Shown piece by piece: positions 269-9,773 of a stretch of 25,198 nt of DNA. Under the pieces are notes generated by a model. That model was not told the DNA's origin, searched no databases, and saw only the letters and a program-made list of their open reading frames with translations. The translations under genes and the position numbers were made by a program. How positions within the stretch are numbered: position 1 is the stretch's first letter; each line of letters opens with the position of its first letter. The stretch is from a virus. The stretch is taken from positions 1-25,198 of IMG/VR virus record IMGVR_UViG_3300027734_000294; one strand, 5' to 3'.

Positions 269-284
269 CTAGGCATATGCCTAG
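269..284 (+). promoter_or_regulatory. 16-bp perfect palindrome, candidate operator
   Basis: CTAGGCATATGCCTAG is a perfect 16-bp dyad with no spacer, in non-coding sequence. It lies about 15 bp upstream of a TACAAT hexamer (299-304), so it covers the expected -35 region. A dimeric repressor or activator bound here would control the replication operon. No regulator gene is present in the window, so the partner is unknown. Confidence 0.45.
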
Positions 285-304
285 CGATTGACGAAAAGTA
301 CAAT
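276..304 (+). promoter_or_regulatory. Candidate promoter of the replication operon
   Basis: TACAAT at 299-304 is a good sigma70-type -10 hexamer. A -35 at 17-bp spacing would fall in the palindrome at about 276-281 and does not match TTGACA. A TTGACG exists at 288-293 but is too close. Transcription would begin near 311, just before the first arm of the leader structure. The same TACAAT hexamer occurs in the second candidate promoter at 4242-4247. The poor -35 suggests activator dependence, or that the call is wrong. Confidence 0.3.
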
Positions 305-310
305 TTAGCG

Positions 311-426
311 AAGTCTGGCTGGCACCTGACTCAATACAACACAATTCCCCGGCGGGTACATTCTTAGCCATTCGGCTATAGGTGCCAGCCCTTGTATCCG
401 CCGGGGGTTTTTTACAAGGTGCTAAC
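311..426 (+). promoter_or_regulatory. Pseudoknotted, attenuator-like 5' leader of the replication operon
   Basis: Four complementary segments are visible. Stem 1 pairs 317-327 (GGCTGGCACCT) with 380-390, 11 bp, perfect. Stem 2 pairs 347-355 (CCCCGGCGG) with 398-406, 9 bp. Its 5' arm is inside the stem 1 loop and its 3' arm is outside, which is an H-type pseudoknot. A local hairpin pairs 365-369 (TAGCC) with 374-378 (GGCTA). A fourth helix pairs 390-396 (CCTTGTA) with 413-419 (TACAAGG) and would sequester the AAGG (416-419) that serves the ATG at 427. The stem 2 3' arm runs directly into T6 (408-413), so stem 2 also looks like an intrinsic terminator with a long loop. This is the pattern of a cis-regulatory RNA acting on termination and/or translation. 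I do not recognise a known riboswitch consensus. Confidence 0.5.
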
Positions 427-1233
427 ATGGCACGCAAGAAACCGCCATCGTTCGACTTCTTCGCTGATGACTTCATCGCGGGCACCTACCACATGGAAGC
501 AGAAGCGGTCGGCATCTACATCCGCCTGTTGTGCTATCAATGGTCGAATGGGTCAATTCCCGACGACGAGCCGACACTTTGCAAGATTGCCGGAGTCGAT
601 GCGAACGCATTGCGAACGCATATGCGGTCGGTTATGCGAAAGCTATGCGTTGGCAGTGCTGGAGAGTTGTACAACGAGCGACTTGAGATCGAGCGAGCGA
701 AAAAGCTAGAGATCATCGAGAAGGCGAAAAGGTCAGCGGAACAGCGATGGAGCAAGGAAAACAAAGGTAATCCGAAATTACGGCCGGAAAATGACGGATG
801 CGAACGCAATGCGAACGCATATGCGAACGCAATGCCAACGCAATGCTCCCTACTTCCTACTTCCAACGTCCTACTTCCAAATACAAATAACCCCCTACCC
901 CCTAAGGGGACAGGTAAAGCAACTTCGCTAGGTGAGTGGGACATACCGGACGGCTTTGATACTCCAGAAGTAAGACAAGCCCTTAGCGACTTCGAGTCGA
1001 TGAGGGCGAGTATCGGCAAGAAGATCAAGAGCCGGGCGAACGTATCGAAGTCCCTAAGAGGTTATGACAGTCCATCTCACTTGGTATATGCAATTGAGTT
1101 TGCAATTGGCAACGAGTACCAAGGCATCAAGCCTGAGTATCGACCAAGTAACGTAGGGCAAGGTGGCTACACGTCACCCAAGCCTAAAAAATCCACCCTG
1201 CCTGTTATCGACGAAAACTGGGAGCCAGCATAA
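427..1233 (+). CDS. DUF1376-family phage replication protein
   Basis: The 268-residue product begins MARKKPPSFDFFADDFIAGT and continues with the tryptophan/leucine-rich pattern of DUF1376 (YdaU-like) proteins, which occupy the replication-initiator position in many phages. Residues 1 to about 105 are the DUF1376 domain, about 115-160 form a low-complexity linker rich in N, A, P and T, and the rest is a basic C-terminal region. The ATG at 427 is chosen because AAGG lies seven bases upstream. An upstream GTG at 382 would add 15 residues but lies within the leader structure. The stop overlaps the next ATG (TAATG), so it is translationally coupled to the DnaB-type helicase. By analogy with lambda O it probably binds the origin and helps load the helicase. 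Two iteron clusters lie in its own coding sequence. Confidence 0.75.
   Translation: MARKKPPSFDFFADDFIAGTYHMEAEAVGIYIRLLCYQWSNGSIPDDEPTLCKIAGVDANALRTHMRSVMRKLCVGSAGELYNERLEIERAKKLEIIEKAKRSAEQRWSKENKGNPKLRPENDGCERNANAYANAMPTQCSLLPTSNVLLPNTNNPLPPKGTGKATSLGEWDIPDGFDTPEVRQALSDFESMRASIGKKIKSRANVSKSLRGYDSPSHLVYAIEFAIGNEYQGIKPEYRPSNVGQGGYTSPKPKKSTLPVIDENWEPA
600..650 (+). repeat. Iteron cluster 1 inside the replication gene
   Basis: TGCGAACGCA occurs exactly at 600-609 and 611-620, and TGCG half-sites follow at 623, 635 and 646. The spacings are 11, 12, 12 and 11 bases, so all copies sit on about the same face of the helix. Each full copy is itself a dyad (TGCG-AA-CGCA). The segment lies in the conserved DUF1376 part, so coding constraint could explain some of it. 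Confidence 0.5.
799..842 (+). repeat. Iteron cluster 2, four copies
   Basis: TGCGAACGCA occurs at 799-808, 810-819 and 822-831, with a one-mismatch copy TGCCAACGCA at 833-842. Spacing is 11, 12 and 11 bases, one helical turn. The encoded protein is a low-complexity NANA linker, so the DNA repeat rather than the protein is probably what is maintained. Together with cluster 1 and the adjacent G-poor tract it resembles lambda ori, which has iterons inside gene O. Confidence 0.6.
846..905 (+). other. Strand-skewed tract, candidate DNA unwinding element
   Basis: These 60 bases contain a single G on the plus strand (868). TACTTCC is present at 851, 858 and 872, followed by an A-rich stretch (879-890) and two CCCCCTA blocks. 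The tract begins directly after the last iteron, the position the melting region takes beside origin iterons. It encodes the proline/asparagine-rich linker of the replication protein. The melting role is inferred from position and strand asymmetry. Confidence 0.4.
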
Positions 1234-2546
1234 TGCCACTACATCCAAGCCACTTCGAGACATGCCGAGCAATCGAAGAGCAGTTGATTGCGGGCATCAT
1301 CCTCAGACCAGGAGACTTCTACGCGGTCGCTGATTCCTTAGACGCTTCCGACTTCATTCATCAACCGATGGCGGACGCTTGGCAAGCATTCCAAGCGATG
1401 GCTAGGGATGGCGTAGAGTTTCACCGCGAATCGGTGATGCTCTCGGAACTTCGCAAGCGTGGAGTCTTTGACAAGATCGGCGGCGATGTTGGCTTCGCTG
1501 ACCTCGTAACGAAAACCGTACCAGGGCACATCGTTTACCACTCAGAGCAAGTCGCAGAATGGGCAGAGCGGCGGCGGGTGTTGTTGGCTTTGGAGTGGGC
1601 TGTGACCGAGGCTTCATCGTTGGCATTCGATCCGGATAGCGTGGTCAGCAATGCTCAACAGCGATTACTCAAAGCCAAGAGCATTGGCGGCGAGGATGTT
1701 CAGCATCTCGGTGACTTGATGGGCGACTATCTTCAGACTCTCGAAGATGCAAGAGCTAACAGGCGAACGGCGGCGGTAGTGCGGACTGGGTTTCGTGAGA
1801 TTGACATGGCCCTAAGTGGCGGAATACCGCTTGGATCATACGCGATCCTTGCCGCTAGACCGTCAATCGGCAAGTCGGCTCTTGCAATGGATATCGCTCA
1901 AAACGCCGCGGCGAACAACGATCAGACGCTATTCGTATCGCTCGAAATGTCCAATCAGCAGATCGGCCAGCGGCAGTTCGTCAAGAATGCCGACATGCGT
2001 ATCAGCGAAATGCAAAATGCTTCGTACACGGACGCGGATTGCTTGCGAATGCTAAAGGCTTGCAGCGAAGCGAAGCAGTTGCCGCTTTACGTGTGGCAAG
2101 CGGCGGGTATCTCGATGGCTCGCATCGAATCGCGGTTAAGAGCAGAAGTTGCCAAGCGTGGCGTGAGGCTGGTTATCGTTGACTACCTTGGACTTATTCG
2201 CGGCAGCAGTCCACATCAGAAGATTTACGAGCGGGTGACACAGATCAGCGGCGAACTTGCGAGGGTTAGCAAACAGCTTAACATCGCGTTGTTGGTGCTA
2301 TGCCAGTTGGGCCGAGCGGCGGAAGGTGAAGAGCCTAGTATCAACATGCTGCGGGATTCAGGTGCTATCGAACAGGACGCGGATATTGTGATGTTATTGC
2401 ATCGCGAAAGCCGTGACGCTCAAGATGCCGCAGTGTTGCTTGAGAAGCAGCGAAACGGCAAAGTAGGGCGGTTTAACCTCAAGTTTGACGGTAAGCGGTT
2501 CAGCGATGCGTTTCGAGACGCGGAAACTTTTCACGGAGACTTTTAA
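1233..2546 (+). CDS. dnaB: Replicative DNA helicase, DnaB family
   Basis: This 437-residue protein has the two-domain DnaB plan. The N-terminal helical domain covers about residues 8-125 and the RecA-like ATPase about 175-437. Visible motifs are Walker A ARPSIGKS (208-215), Walker B VIVDYLGL (314-321), the sensor glutamine in LCQLGR (Q358), RDSGAIEQDADIVMLLHR (374-391), and EKQRNGK (404-410) carrying the arginine finger. It would unwind DNA at the phage fork as a hexameric 5'-3' helicase and recruit host primase. The ATG overlaps the stop of the DUF1376 gene (TAATG), and the pair parallels lambda O-P or other initiator/helicase modules. Length and motifs are complete, with no sign of an intein. 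Confidence 0.95.
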   Translation: MPLHPSHFETCRAIEEQLIAGIILRPGDFYAVADSLDASDFIHQPMADAWQAFQAMARDGVEFHRESVMLSELRKRGVFDKIGGDVGFADLVTKTVPGHIVYHSEQVAEWAERRRVLLALEWAVTEASSLAFDPDSVVSNAQQRLLKAKSIGGEDVQHLGDLMGDYLQTLEDARANRRTAAVVRTGFREIDMALSGGIPLGSYAILAARPSIGKSALAMDIAQNAAANNDQTLFVSLEMSNQQIGQRQFVKNADMRISEMQNASYTDADCLRMLKACSEAKQLPLYVWQAAGISMARIESRLRAEVAKRGVRLVIVDYLGLIRGSSPHQKIYERVTQISGELARVSKQLNIALLVLCQLGRAAEGEEPSINMLRDSGAIEQDADIVMLLHRESRDAQDAAVLLEKQRNGKVGRFNLKFDGKRFSDAFRDAETFHGDF

Positions 2547-2759: not shown

Positions 2760-3109
2760 GCGAACAAATAAAAATCGACGATCATATCGGGCCCTTCAAG
2801 TCCGCAGGGAGTGTTGTGCCAACGGAGCAATGGAACGGGTTGTATTGGGCATACAACTGCCCTTTGCAGATGTGGGAAGACGGCGAGCGGGGGTGGCGTG
2901 TTGTTAATTACATGCCGCGAAAAGAAACCTGTGATTCCATTGATGAGCGAGTTACGGCGGAAGAGATGCCGCAATTTTGCAAAAACGCGGCGGTTGTGCT
3001 TCGCAATTTAGCAACGCTTTTTGAACTGATGGCGGATGGAAAAATCGATCACATTTACTATCCAAATAAAGACCCAGATGTTGCTATTGCCGAGTGCAAG
3101 GGCGAGTAA
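2756..3109 (+). CDS. Hypothetical protein, 117 aa, early region
   Basis: The ATG overlaps the preceding TGA (ATGA) and GAGAGGAAAG lies upstream with good spacing. The product starts MSEQIKIDDHIGPFKSAGSV and is soluble and acidic, with several tryptophans and tyrosines in the first half (an NGLYWAYN segment) and a helical second half (FCKNAAVVLRNLATLFELM). I see no signal peptide, membrane segment or catalytic motif and do not recognise the family. Its place between helicase and nucleotide-metabolism genes suggests an early accessory function. Confidence 0.7.
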   Translation: MSEQIKIDDHIGPFKSAGSVVPTEQWNGLYWAYNCPLQMWEDGERGWRVVNYMPRKETCDSIDERVTAEEMPQFCKNAAVVLRNLATLFELMADGKIDHIYYPNKDPDVAIAECKGE

Positions 3110-3152
3110 GTAGGGATGGCGTTTTATTTTTTATTTTTGCGAGGGAAAAGAA

Positions 3153-3707
3153 ATGAGCGAAACAAATTTTAAGGTCGGGGATCGGGTGCGGGTTAAATCG
3201 CCAGCGAGTCCGATGGATGGCGTGGTTTGCGTTGTTACAGCGACAAACGCGGGAATGCGTTCGCCGTATTGCGTCGAGTTAAAAGATTGCAGTCAAGGAA
3301 GTTGGTTCAGCGAATACGAACTTGTGCTAGCCGAACCTGCCCCAGCCGTCAAGGAATGCTTGACAGTTGACAACGCACAGACGACAGGCAAACAGGCGTT
3401 CGTCCGAGCTCGTTACGATTGCATTGATCCAATAGCGTTGCGGCTAGTCGCTGAATGCGTTGGCTTTGGTGCGAGGAAGTACGGCGAAGATAACCACAAA
3501 AAGATCAGCGTTCGAGATCACCTCAACCATGCGGTAAACCACATTTTGGAGCATCGTATAGGTGACCAAAGCGAGATGCATTTAGTACATGCAATTGCAA
3601 GGCTGTTTTTTGCGGTCGAGTTAGTAGTCCATTCTGGTGCTATGAAGGATCGGTACTTCCATCCGGACATGGTCGAGGGAGTTTCAGAGGAGGTAAGCGG
3701 TGAGTAA
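3153..3707 (+). CDS. SH3-like domain fused to a dATP/dGTP diphosphohydrolase-like (DUF5664) domain
   Basis: GAGGG lies eight bases before the ATG. Residues 5-58 (FKVGDRVRVKSP... YELV) resemble an SH3/KOW-like beta barrel. Residues 86-160 carry RYDCIDPIALRLVAECVGFG, ARKYGEDNH and HLNHAVNHILEHRIG, then an HLVHAIARLFFAVEL helix, the all-alpha pattern of DUF5664/MazG-like phage nucleotide pyrophosphatases. Characterised members hydrolyse dATP and dGTP, altering the nucleotide pool during infection or supporting base replacement. Here the substrate is inferred from family only. The combination with a barrel domain is moderately unusual. The gene overlaps the resolvase gene by eight bases. Confidence 0.65.
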   Translation: MSETNFKVGDRVRVKSPASPMDGVVCVVTATNAGMRSPYCVELKDCSQGSWFSEYELVLAEPAPAVKECLTVDNAQTTGKQAFVRARYDCIDPIALRLVAECVGFGARKYGEDNHKKISVRDHLNHAVNHILEHRIGDQSEMHLVHAIARLFFAVELVVHSGAMKDRYFHPDMVEGVSEEVSGE

Positions 3708-5113: not shown

Positions 5114-5313
5114 TGCCTAAACTCGTATACAATATCCTGAATTGGATTGAGGAGTGGTTGTTCGTCAATGAAGGGCTAGTTAGGGCGATTGTTTTTGTTG
5201 TTGCGGCGTGGGCTTTTTTCTTCGCTGGCGTCTACCGTGGGAAGCAGATAGCAGAGCGGGAAGCATTGCAGCAACTAGCGAAAATCATGCTTGAAGAAAA
5301 GGCGGCGAAATAA
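5113..5313 (+). CDS. Small single-pass membrane protein, 66 aa
   Basis: The ATG at 5113 overlaps the previous TAA. The sequence has an amphipathic start (MPKLVYNILNWIEEWLFV), a membrane helix at about residues 24-42 (VRAIVFVVAAWAFFFAGVY) and a charged helical tail (KQIAEREALQQLAKIM...). The layout is that of a small holin or membrane accessory. It is one of five clustered membrane-type proteins and ends in TAATG with the next. Confidence 0.6.
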   Translation: MPKLVYNILNWIEEWLFVNEGLVRAIVFVVAAWAFFFAGVYRGKQIAEREALQQLAKIMLEEKAAK

Positions 5314-5525
5314 TGGACTGCAAGGAACTCGAAAACAAATTGCTTGAACTTGAAGCAAAGCAAGCCCAACGCAACGAGCATTTAATTGGCGGCGTGGTGC
5401 TGGCGTTATTGCTTGCAACGGTTGCTTTGCTTGGCGGCATCATGTCGGCTATCGAGCAGCAACAGCGACTTGAGCGGCTGGAGCATATGCAAGGCATCGA
5501 CGCAATCGGGAGGCGGATTAAGTGA
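5313..5525 (+). CDS. Small single-pass membrane protein with flanking coiled coil, 70 aa
   Basis: The product begins MDCKELENKLLELEAKQAQR, a charged helix, then a membrane segment at about residues 24-45 (LIGGVVLALLLATVALLGGIMS), then a second charged helix (IEQQQRLERLEHMQ). The shape, one membrane helix between two coiled-coil arms, suggests an oligomerising membrane protein. Start and stop are coupled to both neighbours (TAATG and GTGA). Confidence 0.6.
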   Translation: MDCKELENKLLELEAKQAQRNEHLIGGVVLALLLATVALLGGIMSAIEQQQRLERLEHMQGIDAIGRRIK

Positions 5526-7471: not shown

Positions 7472-8130
7472 CAATCAGCATTGTAGGAAGTGCGACGAAT
7501 TTAGGTAACACAATCACCATGCCGACACATGCGGCAGGTGATCTGCTTATGATGTTTGCATACAACGATGGAGCATCGACAGCAGTTACACTCCCCACGG
7601 GATGGGTTGAGCGTTATGGTGTCGCAGTCGGTGGCTCAGGGTACATTCGAATTGGTTACAAGTATGCAGCATCAGCAGCAGAGACAAGCGGGACATGGAC
7701 GAATGCTGACCACATCTTTGCGATCTCGATGCGTGGTGGTTCTAATACACTGCTATTTCCAAATTTCGTTTCCACAAATACGGGTACATCTGCGACGATC
7801 AACTATGCCGCTCAAACAGCGTCAACATTCCAGACGAATGCAGACGATCAAGCATTGTTGAGCTGGGTTGCAAGTCGAAACTCTGCCAATACATTGACAG
7901 CACCAACAGGATTGACCGAAGAGCGAGCAGCGACAGACGGTGCAAACTTCGTCGCACAGATGTGTCGGCAACTTGCAAGAACGACGATTTGGGCCGCGAC
8001 GAATGTGACAGTGACGAATTCCGCACTATATCGAACAGTCATTTTGTCAGTGGTTGAGTCACCAGTCTATGGTGCAACTGGCGGTGGTGCGATGTTTTTC
8101 CGACCAGGAATGAATGGGGGACTGGACTGA
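7468..8130 (+). CDS. Virion-type beta protein, 220 aa, probable tail/host-contact component
   Basis: A GTG start overlaps the previous TGA. The sequence is rich in G, S, T, A and N, low in charge, and contains LPTGWVERYGVAVGGSGYIR and YKYAASAAETSGTW, the alternating pattern of small beta-sandwich phage or surface proteins with a PTGW motif. It ends in a glycine-rich segment (GATGGGAMFF). No catalytic motif. It sits immediately before the fibre-like protein, and the two probably form one structure. Confidence 0.6.
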   Translation: MTISIVGSATNLGNTITMPTHAAGDLLMMFAYNDGASTAVTLPTGWVERYGVAVGGSGYIRIGYKYAASAAETSGTWTNADHIFAISMRGGSNTLLFPNFVSTNTGTSATINYAAQTASTFQTNADDQALLSWVASRNSANTLTAPTGLTEERAATDGANFVAQMCRQLARTTIWAATNVTVTNSALYRTVILSVVESPVYGATGGGAMFFRPGMNGGLD

Positions 8131-9773
8131 TGAAACGTAAAGTTTTTGCTGGTATCACGTCTTTGAGCCTACCGATCATCGTGTACGACAACACATCGAC
8201 AACCGGAGCTGGATTGAGTGGCTTGACGCACTCAACGAGCGGCTTGGTGTTGGAGTATCGCAGGGCGGGCCAGTCGTCTTGGACTTCGGTTACTCTCGTT
8301 AGCAAGACGCTTGGCACGTATACCAGCGGCGGCATCGTTGCGAGTGGATCAAGAGCAGGACGCTACGAGGTCGATATTCCCGATGCGGCGGTAGCGGCTG
8401 GTGTTCGCATGGTTGAGATATGCCTTCGCGGTGCCGCGAACATGCACCCGGTAGACATTGAAATTGAACTAGACGCGGTGAACTACCAAGACGCAACATC
8501 CTTTGGCCTGTCGCGTATTGATGCGGCGGTATCGAGTCGCATGGCAACCTACACACAGCCTACAGGATTCCTCACGGCTGCGTTCCCAGCAACGGTTGCA
8601 AGCACGACGAACATAACAGCGGCAAGCGGTATTACGCTAGCGGCATCTCAACCTGGCGTAACGATACCGACGGTAACGAGCGTTACTAACGGCGTAACGG
8701 TATCGACGAACAACGATAAGACCGGCTACAGCCTCACGCAATCATTTCCGTCAAACTTTGCGACGTTGAGCATCAACGAAAGCGGTCGGGTATTGCTACA
8801 GCCTACGCAACCTGGCGTAACGATACCGACGGTAACGAGCGTCGATACGGTTGATGAATTGGGGCCTGATGCACTCAATGCCAACTCACTACAGGATCAA
8901 ATTTCGAGTGCAACGTGGAGCAGTCTTACTACAGCAACATGGCCCACCAACTCCTTCGGCAAGCAAGTGTTGATTGGATTGTCAACGCAACGCGAAGTTG
9001 CGGTAACGGGGTCTCATCACGTTGCATCCGTGCTGCACGACGCCGAGCCTAATTCGATCCCGGAAGATGCCTTTGTTACCGGTGCATTGTCGGCACGGGT
9101 GCTAGCAGCCGATGCGGCAACCGAGATAGCAACAACCGTAGGTACGTTGCAGGTGCTTACGCGATTGGACAGCATGATTGAGAGCGATGGAGCGGGGCAG
9201 TTTAGGTTTGATACGATTGCCTTGAGCATGGCACCGGCTGGAGGTGGTGGTGGTGGAACTGATTGGACGTCGAGCGAACGGACGGCTATTAGAGGTATCC
9301 TTGGGTTCAGCTCCAGCGGCGTCATCTCGTTGCCAAGCGAAGGTGTTTTAGATGCGATCAAAGACAAGACCGACCTGATAACATCAGGAGCGGTGCAGAC
9401 TTCACTACCGGTCACAGCAAGCGGTCAGATAACAAGCCCATTGGTTATCGGTGATGACTACCTAGCGGCCAATGGCAGAGCCTTTAGTTGGACGGTTGCA
9501 TTGCCTACCGGATTCGTTGCGGCTACCGCCTCTTGCCGATTCGGTATGCGTTTCGAGGATGAACAGGGAGTAAACTCATTCATCTCTACAGGCGCGGTAA
9601 CTGATGCGGGAAGCGGTAACGTGACGCTATCGTTCGACGTTGCGAAAACGGTTACAGGCATGCTCAGACCTGGTTGGTATGATTGGTCGGTTGAGATTGT
9701 TTCGGCATCTGGCGTTGAGGTTACACGGGTCAAGAGCGGTAAGAATGCCGAGTGGCAGGAGAAGCAGACATGA
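8130..9773 (+). CDS. Tail fibre/baseplate-like structural protein, 547 aa
   Basis: The start forms TGATG with the previous stop. Residues 1-125 (KVFAGITSLSLPIIVYDNTS... VRMVEICLRGAANMHPV...) match an N-terminal beta module frequent in phage tail-associated proteins of environmental phages. Residues 130-250 are a T/S/A/V-rich shaft including two copies of QPGVTIPTVTSV. A GGGGGG hinge follows, then DWTSSERTAIRGILG and LDAIKDKTDLI, a short motif pair common in phage tail proteins, then a C-terminal beta domain. It is likely a virion fibre or baseplate appendage. Its position upstream of the terminase, rather than after the tape measure, is unusual. Confidence 0.65.
   Translation: MKRKVFAGITSLSLPIIVYDNTSTTGAGLSGLTHSTSGLVLEYRRAGQSSWTSVTLVSKTLGTYTSGGIVASGSRAGRYEVDIPDAAVAAGVRMVEICLRGAANMHPVDIEIELDAVNYQDATSFGLSRIDAAVSSRMATYTQPTGFLTAAFPATVASTTNITAASGITLAASQPGVTIPTVTSVTNGVTVSTNNDKTGYSLTQSFPSNFATLSINESGRVLLQPTQPGVTIPTVTSVDTVDELGPDALNANSLQDQISSATWSSLTTATWPTNSFGKQVLIGLSTQREVAVTGSHHVASVLHDAEPNSIPEDAFVTGALSARVLAADAATEIATTVGTLQVLTRLDSMIESDGAGQFRFDTIALSMAPAGGGGGGTDWTSSERTAIRGILGFSSSGVISLPSEGVLDAIKDKTDLITSGAVQTSLPVTASGQITSPLVIGDDYLAANGRAFSWTVALPTGFVAATASCRFGMRFEDEQGVNSFISTGAVTDAGSGNVTLSFDVAKTVTGMLRPGWYDWSVEIVSASGVEVTRVKSGKNAEWQEKQT
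8649..8842 (+). repeat. 35-bp exact direct repeat within the fibre-like gene
   Basis: The 35 bases at 8649-8683 are repeated identically at 8808-8842, both starting CAACCTGGCGTAACG, 159 bases (53 codons) apart and in the same frame. Each copy encodes QPGVTIPTVTSV. Perfect DNA identity including third codon positions suggests a recent duplication or gene conversion in the shaft, so copy number may vary between relatives and change shaft length. Confidence 0.8.

Follow-up and report, generated by a model that had tools for sequence, protein, structure and literature searches.

The leader directly upstream of the first replication gene in the 25.2-kb virus record analyzed here (the window) almost certainly folds into a pseudoknot of two interlocked stems with an inner hairpin. 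By sequence comparison, it is a phage mRNA-leader pseudoknot of a family that has no description in the sources searched and no match in Rfam. Covariation and co-occurrence with one DnaB-type replication module lend strong support to the original prediction of a pseudoknotted leader RNA linked to replication genes. Its further suggestion of a riboswitch or attenuator is not supported, as neither the T6 tract nor the helix over the Shine-Dalgarno sequence on which it relied is conserved and the leaders revealed no alternative fold that is conserved.

Architecture and setting of the leader

The replication region lies at the left end of the record and carries a single copy of the leader (Table 1). 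Downstream of the helicase gene, dATP/dGTP diphosphohydrolase-like and resolvase-like genes are found together with terminase, portal and head genes. Proteins related to the head proteins at 24-34% identity are encoded in genomes from the phylum to which a Pirellula MAG belongs; as to the host, this is no more than a hint. Iteron-like direct repeats (GATGCGAACGCATTGCGAACGCATATGCG) are present within the first replication gene (598-626, 797-825 and 820-848) and recall origins located inside initiator genes.

Table 1. Positions of the leader elements and adjoining features in the window.
Feature	Position	Strand	Remarks
Dyad	270-283	+	TAGGCATATGCCTA; 5' of the putative promoter, possible operator
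-10-like box	299-304	+	TACAAT, 12 nt before stem 1; putative role
Putative transcription start region	310-312	+	6-8 nt past the -10-like box, placed by spacing
Stem 1, 5' arm	317-327	+	GGCTGGCACCT
Loop 1	328-346	+	A-rich, conserved ACAA-like core
Stem 2, 5' arm	347-360	+	CCCCGGCGGGTACA
Loop 2	361-379	+	Conserved UCU (362-364), then inner hairpin
Inner hairpin	365-378	+	TAGCC-ATTC-GGCTA, abuts stem 1 3' arm
Stem 1, 3' arm	380-390	+	AGGTGCCAGCC
Stem 2, 3' arm	393-406	+	TGTATCCGCCGGGG; 2 nt past stem 1
T6 tract	408-413	+	Degenerate in many relatives
Shine-Dalgarno sequence	416-419	+	AAGG
Operon gene 1	427-1233	+	DUF1376/primosomal-type replication protein, 268 aa
Operon gene 2	1233-2546	+	DnaB-like replicative helicase, 437 aa

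Stem 1 comprises 11 bp without a mismatch and the small inner hairpin is present, both as originally predicted. Stem 2 was correctly located but underestimated at 9 bp: it spans 14 bp including one G.U pair, or 15 bp if U346.G407 is included. That the two stems interlock was confirmed with a descriptor, i.e., a purpose-written search for two interlocked stems. The leader scores 68.4. Dinucleotide shuffling of the whole window, repeated 400 times, gave at best 58.6, and shuffling the leader alone 1000 times never produced a score as high as its own. The nested fold of positions 300-430 has a z-score of -3.65, and according to rough energies the pseudoknot is better than the best nested fold in only six out of ten leaders. 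A further descriptor match at 5353-5447 (score 54.2, reached in 2 of 400 shuffles) is located inside a 70-aa ORF (5313-5525) and is possibly due to chance.

A -10-like TANAAT box precedes stem 1 by 9-13 nt among the leaders, reading TATAAT or TAAAAT in the sister clade (see below). At the position of the upstream dyad, which is present in most leader types, other relatives have ATTCC-N3/4-GGAAT. No -35 consensus was found near the box. Since a scan for the sigma-70 consensus gave no promoter, we infer promoter and start from the position of the -10-like box; if this box is used, the RNA would begin around position 310, a few bases from stem 1. This suggests that the pseudoknot forms the 5' end of the mRNA or sits within a few bases of it.

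Further upstream, directly past the stop codon of a methyltransferase gene, a second conserved structured-RNA-like element is found (123-262; GGTTGGCTCGCC...GGGGCGTTCTT), which ends in a GC-rich, terminator-like hairpin. It occurs in 36 IMG/VR contigs by exact pattern and in the sister clade as well, has an inner hairpin with compensatory changes (UGC/GCA, AAC/GUU) and has no match in Rfam.

The original prediction could not match the leader to a known class, and neither did Rfam 15 (4227 models, riboswitches and ribozymes included). The whole window gave no match at the gathering threshold, and positions 90-440, searched at E up to 10, gave only a chance 28-nt match to sbcD over the upstream terminator hairpin. 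Seven loci with the other leader types yielded a single sub-threshold match, away from the leader.

Conservation of shape across sequence types

A set of 23 related loci was collected from IMG/VR with the protein of the first gene, and more were added via the flank pattern and the helicase. In the clade of the window (helicase 83-100% identical), the leader occurs in four sequence types, A-D, the window being type A. Four further types, E-H, come from a sister clade whose helicase is 64-67% identical, giving at least eight sequence types with one common architecture. The descriptor fits each of 11 leaders that together cover types A-H, and for every one of them no shuffle out of 1000 reaches its score. 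Stem 1 measures 9-14 bp, loop 1 is A-rich in all types, loop 2 opens with UCU or has it close to its start, the inner hairpin directly adjoins the 3' arm of stem 1 and the 3' arms of both stems are separated by 0-5 nt. The stem sequence itself is free: it shows almost complete turnover across the two-clade phage family, and almost no bases are invariant.

As MAFFT misaligned the stems when all types were combined, a model was first built from three types (B, C and E), and the others were aligned to it. In the alignment of these three types, 97.3% of the cells are paired versus 34-46% when partners are slid, and 11 pairs have changed on both sides. Model R1, the covariance model derived from the same types, covers stem 2 and the inner hairpin and leaves out stem 1; one innermost pair is one column off (43-75 for 43-76), which is harmless. 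R1 recovers the other five types (G, H, F, D and A) at the correct positions, with E-values from 2.6e-9 to 1.3e-3. This yielded an alignment of 15 sequences with 93.6% of the cells paired (35-46% when slid), 20 pairs changed on both sides and a covariation score of 0.52 versus 0.16 for shuffled data. Stem 1, although outside R1, has 87.5% of its cells paired (24-58% when slid) and a covariation score of 0.33 versus 0.15. Both pseudoknot stems hence carry the compensatory changes by which the prediction could be checked. A hand count over 248 pairs gave 231 Watson-Crick pairs, 14 G.U, one A.C and two others, i.e., 245 standard pairs. A second model, trained on other type A leaders but without that of the window, matches the window's own leader (E = 3.9e-9). 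It finds the leader once per locus and once in a record of 39 kb.

When G.U and A.C are treated alike in a symmetric test of the stems, 26 G.U stand against five A.C, four of which are located at stem ends. The excess of G.U over A.C points to the plus-strand RNA as the molecule that folds and is selected. On the minus strand, the descriptor is lacking in 10 out of 13 leaders.

The leader occupies the same place in all 73 IMG/VR loci that contain this DnaB module and at least 1.1 kb upstream of it, a heavily redundant set with many near-identical sequences that corresponds to about 37 contigs when counted by contig name. Among these 73 loci, none kept the downstream module while lacking the leader. 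The module is always DUF1376 (or a variant) with DnaB, and the leader is present in a single copy in each record examined. The first ORF behind the leader differs: DUF1376, a MAGDW-type or MARIRTIKPEF-type protein, an HNH gene or an MKTHGVG protein. The leader is missing from those members of the window's clade in which a DEAD-helicase module takes the place of this one (several of L050-L063); in these, the conserved upstream element is followed by other genes. Searches with model R2 gave no convincing match in more distant DnaB phages, in bacterial loci (best E 0.016) or in 294 genomes of the phylum of the Pirellula MAG, where a negative shows little.

Possible roles of the leader

The constant shape, the putative location at the 5' end and the nearness to the ribosome landing site lead us to favor a cis-acting 5' UTR element (317-406) that controls translation initiation or protects the 5' end. 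This reading is tentative, and we put its probability at about 0.45. Transcription would start around position 310 and the RNA would fold while emerging from the polymerase, after which both stems may stack via the nearly continuous strand 380-406. The compact knot would then lie just 5' of the 30S landing site, where it could set the translation initiation of whichever ORF comes first and shield the mRNA 5' end from decay. From the end of stem 2 to the start codon, 20 nt are counted in types A, B and D and in one C leader, and 19 nt in two other C leaders. In many leaders, the Shine-Dalgarno sequence is presented in the loop of a small hairpin that could add to the effect of the knot. This hairpin shows compensating changes between types, with modest individual support (p 0.004-0.2), and is absent from the window and from types C (L003), G and H. 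The 5' UTR reading is weakened by this uneven occurrence of the hairpin, by longer spacing in other types (22-26 nt in F-H, about 50 nt in E), by a pseudoknot that is energetically ahead in only part of the leaders, as stated above, and by a T6 tract that would suit a terminator in several types.

Some other roles were considered and rejected. A leader peptide does not fit, as type A of the window has stops in the frames corresponding to the Shine-Dalgarno-ATG frame of the sister types and as coding cannot account for the nearly complete complementarity of the pairs. In sister-clade leaders L092-L100 (e.g., L097 at about 3030-3170), such a frame does span the whole pseudoknot and overlaps the start of the next gene. 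Programmed frameshifting was set aside because no slippery heptamer is seen by eye near stem 1. A search for targets in trans gave no sense or antisense match of at least 11 nt to the leader elsewhere in the window.

A transcription attenuator, as the original prediction suggested, is unlikely. Stem 2 and the U-tract would act as an intrinsic terminator, while stem 1, which closes a loop around the 5' arm of stem 2, would form earlier and hinder stem 2, thereby deciding between read-through and stop. Indeed, the sequence order completes stem 1 ahead of stem 2 during transcription, and T6 follows directly 3' of stem 2 in the window and in types E, F and G. The tract exists as predicted, but it is not a conserved terminator: across most of the window's own clade it is degenerate (L009, L017, L019, L025 and types B, C and D), reading CTTTGTC, ACTTATC, GTTTAGT or GTCTCAC in close relatives. 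Moreover, the terminator loop would measure about 32 nt, and in F types the T-run is able to pair with downstream AAAA. A switch would also need a pairing that frees stem 2, and no conserved, mutually exclusive antiterminator or anti-Shine-Dalgarno helix was found among the leaders. The predicted helix over AAGG (390-396/413-419, CCTTGTA/TACAAGG) does occur in the window; as it has bases in common with each of the pseudoknot stems, it excludes both. It is kept in the type A leaders with T6 and in L009 (there by a G-C replacement), broken in L017, L019 and L025 and, by inspection, absent from types B-H, and was rejected as a conserved switch.

Pseudoknot riboswitches such as preQ1, SAM-II and others place a pseudoknot with an A-rich loop ahead of the ribosome binding site, as does the leader. 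Nonetheless, the leader differs from them in lacking an Rfam match, a conserved alternative fold and, almost entirely, invariant bases. HDV-like ribozymes have the strand order P1-P2-P3-P1'-P2', which is topologically like that of the leader. They are characterized by a 7-bp P1, P1.1, P4 and a J4/2 with the catalytic C, whereas the leader has no P4, no J4/2 with a catalytic C and no Rfam match, and its longer stem 1 and the short distance between its 3' arms, both given above, differ as well.

Besides the HK022 put RNAs treated below, the closest functional analogue is found in gene 32 of the tailed phages T4 and RB69, where a 5' pseudoknot likewise precedes the Shine-Dalgarno sequence of a DNA-replication gene; this mRNA pseudoknot is an autogenous translational operator in which shape outweighs sequence (PMC535899). 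Analogously, a phage replication protein could bind the knot of the leader and spread over the ribosome binding site. Besides the equal placement, this quite unlikely reading draws on the tolerance of the T4/RB69 operators to sequence change (PMC535899) and on DnaB as the constant downstream product. The T4 element, however, comprises about 28 nt followed by more than 40 nt of unstructured UUAAA repeats and is bound by the phage's own SSB. The leader consists of about 90 nt with three helices and a spacer of 19-20 nt in the window's clade, and contains no UUAAA repeats. Behind it, no operator-binding SSB is encoded: the window has DUF1376 as the first ORF, and relatives have various other kinds there. 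Given the variable first ORF and the free stem sequence, autogenous control by the product of the first gene is unlikely; the leader is more probably a shape-dependent 5' UTR module.

Antitermination as by the put RNAs of phage HK022 is improbable. Here, the nascent 5'-terminal fold would bind RNA polymerase and make it resist terminators within the operon. The leader resembles putL and putR as an RNA element of a phage early transcript (PMC9378689), and its putative location at the 5' end of the early operon is comparable to that of putL just downstream of its promoter (PMC9378689). It also keeps its shape plus a few loop bases (UCU, A-rich loop 1). The put RNAs of about 70 nt, on the other hand, are built from two stem-loops that share sequence, with no pseudoknot reported (PMC9378689), whereas the leader has an interlocked fold with free stem sequences, and no target terminator was identified inside the operon. 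As the defining features of both are absent, the leader belongs to neither the gene 32-type nor the put RNAs. Finally, a function at the DNA level, as replication origin or recombination site, with an incidental RNA fold is very improbable: the element adjoins replication genes amid clustered HNH nuclease genes, and genomes differ in how leader types and first ORFs are shuffled together, but the excess of G.U, the scarcity of the descriptor on the minus strand and the fixed placement before the start codon argue against it.

Possible exchange of leader alleles and significance

Genomes with a DnaB that is 96-98% identical to that of the window carry leader A, B, C or D between near-identical flanks, and leader types and first ORFs are found in several combinations. 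Either the knot is swapped as a cassette, or it evolves very fast under a constraint on shape. Cassette conversion is plausible because HNH genes surround the knot.

Several rearrangements are observed in this region. HNH endonuclease genes have entered several sites around both the leader and the upstream element (L032 865-1341, L045 883-1344 and L050-L063). The replication module is exchanged as well: the same upstream element is followed by either DUF1376/DnaB or DEAD-helicase/primase. In L031 and L044, an insert of about 2.5 kb separates the leader from the replication genes; by eye, it encodes a 270-aa protein and a ParB-like protein (L031 7051-7860 and rc 7555-8973).

A farther-reaching and rather unlikely proposal is that the leader represents a new class of 5'-terminal pseudoknot RNA that acts through topology instead of sequence, with swappable alleles and stems that possibly diversify under selection. 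Diversification of the stems could, for example, allow escape from homing HNH nucleases, CRISPR or a trans-acting RNA; early gene expression would be set by the shape.

Very strong covariation thus reveals an uncatalogued RNA family in uncultured phages that is linked to one replication module and missing where a different module takes its place. As a pseudoknot whose conservation lies almost entirely in its shape, it is a clean example, and eight naturally occurring sequence variants are available for testing. This makes it testable whether 5'-terminal pseudoknots may set early phage gene expression via translation, decay or antitermination.
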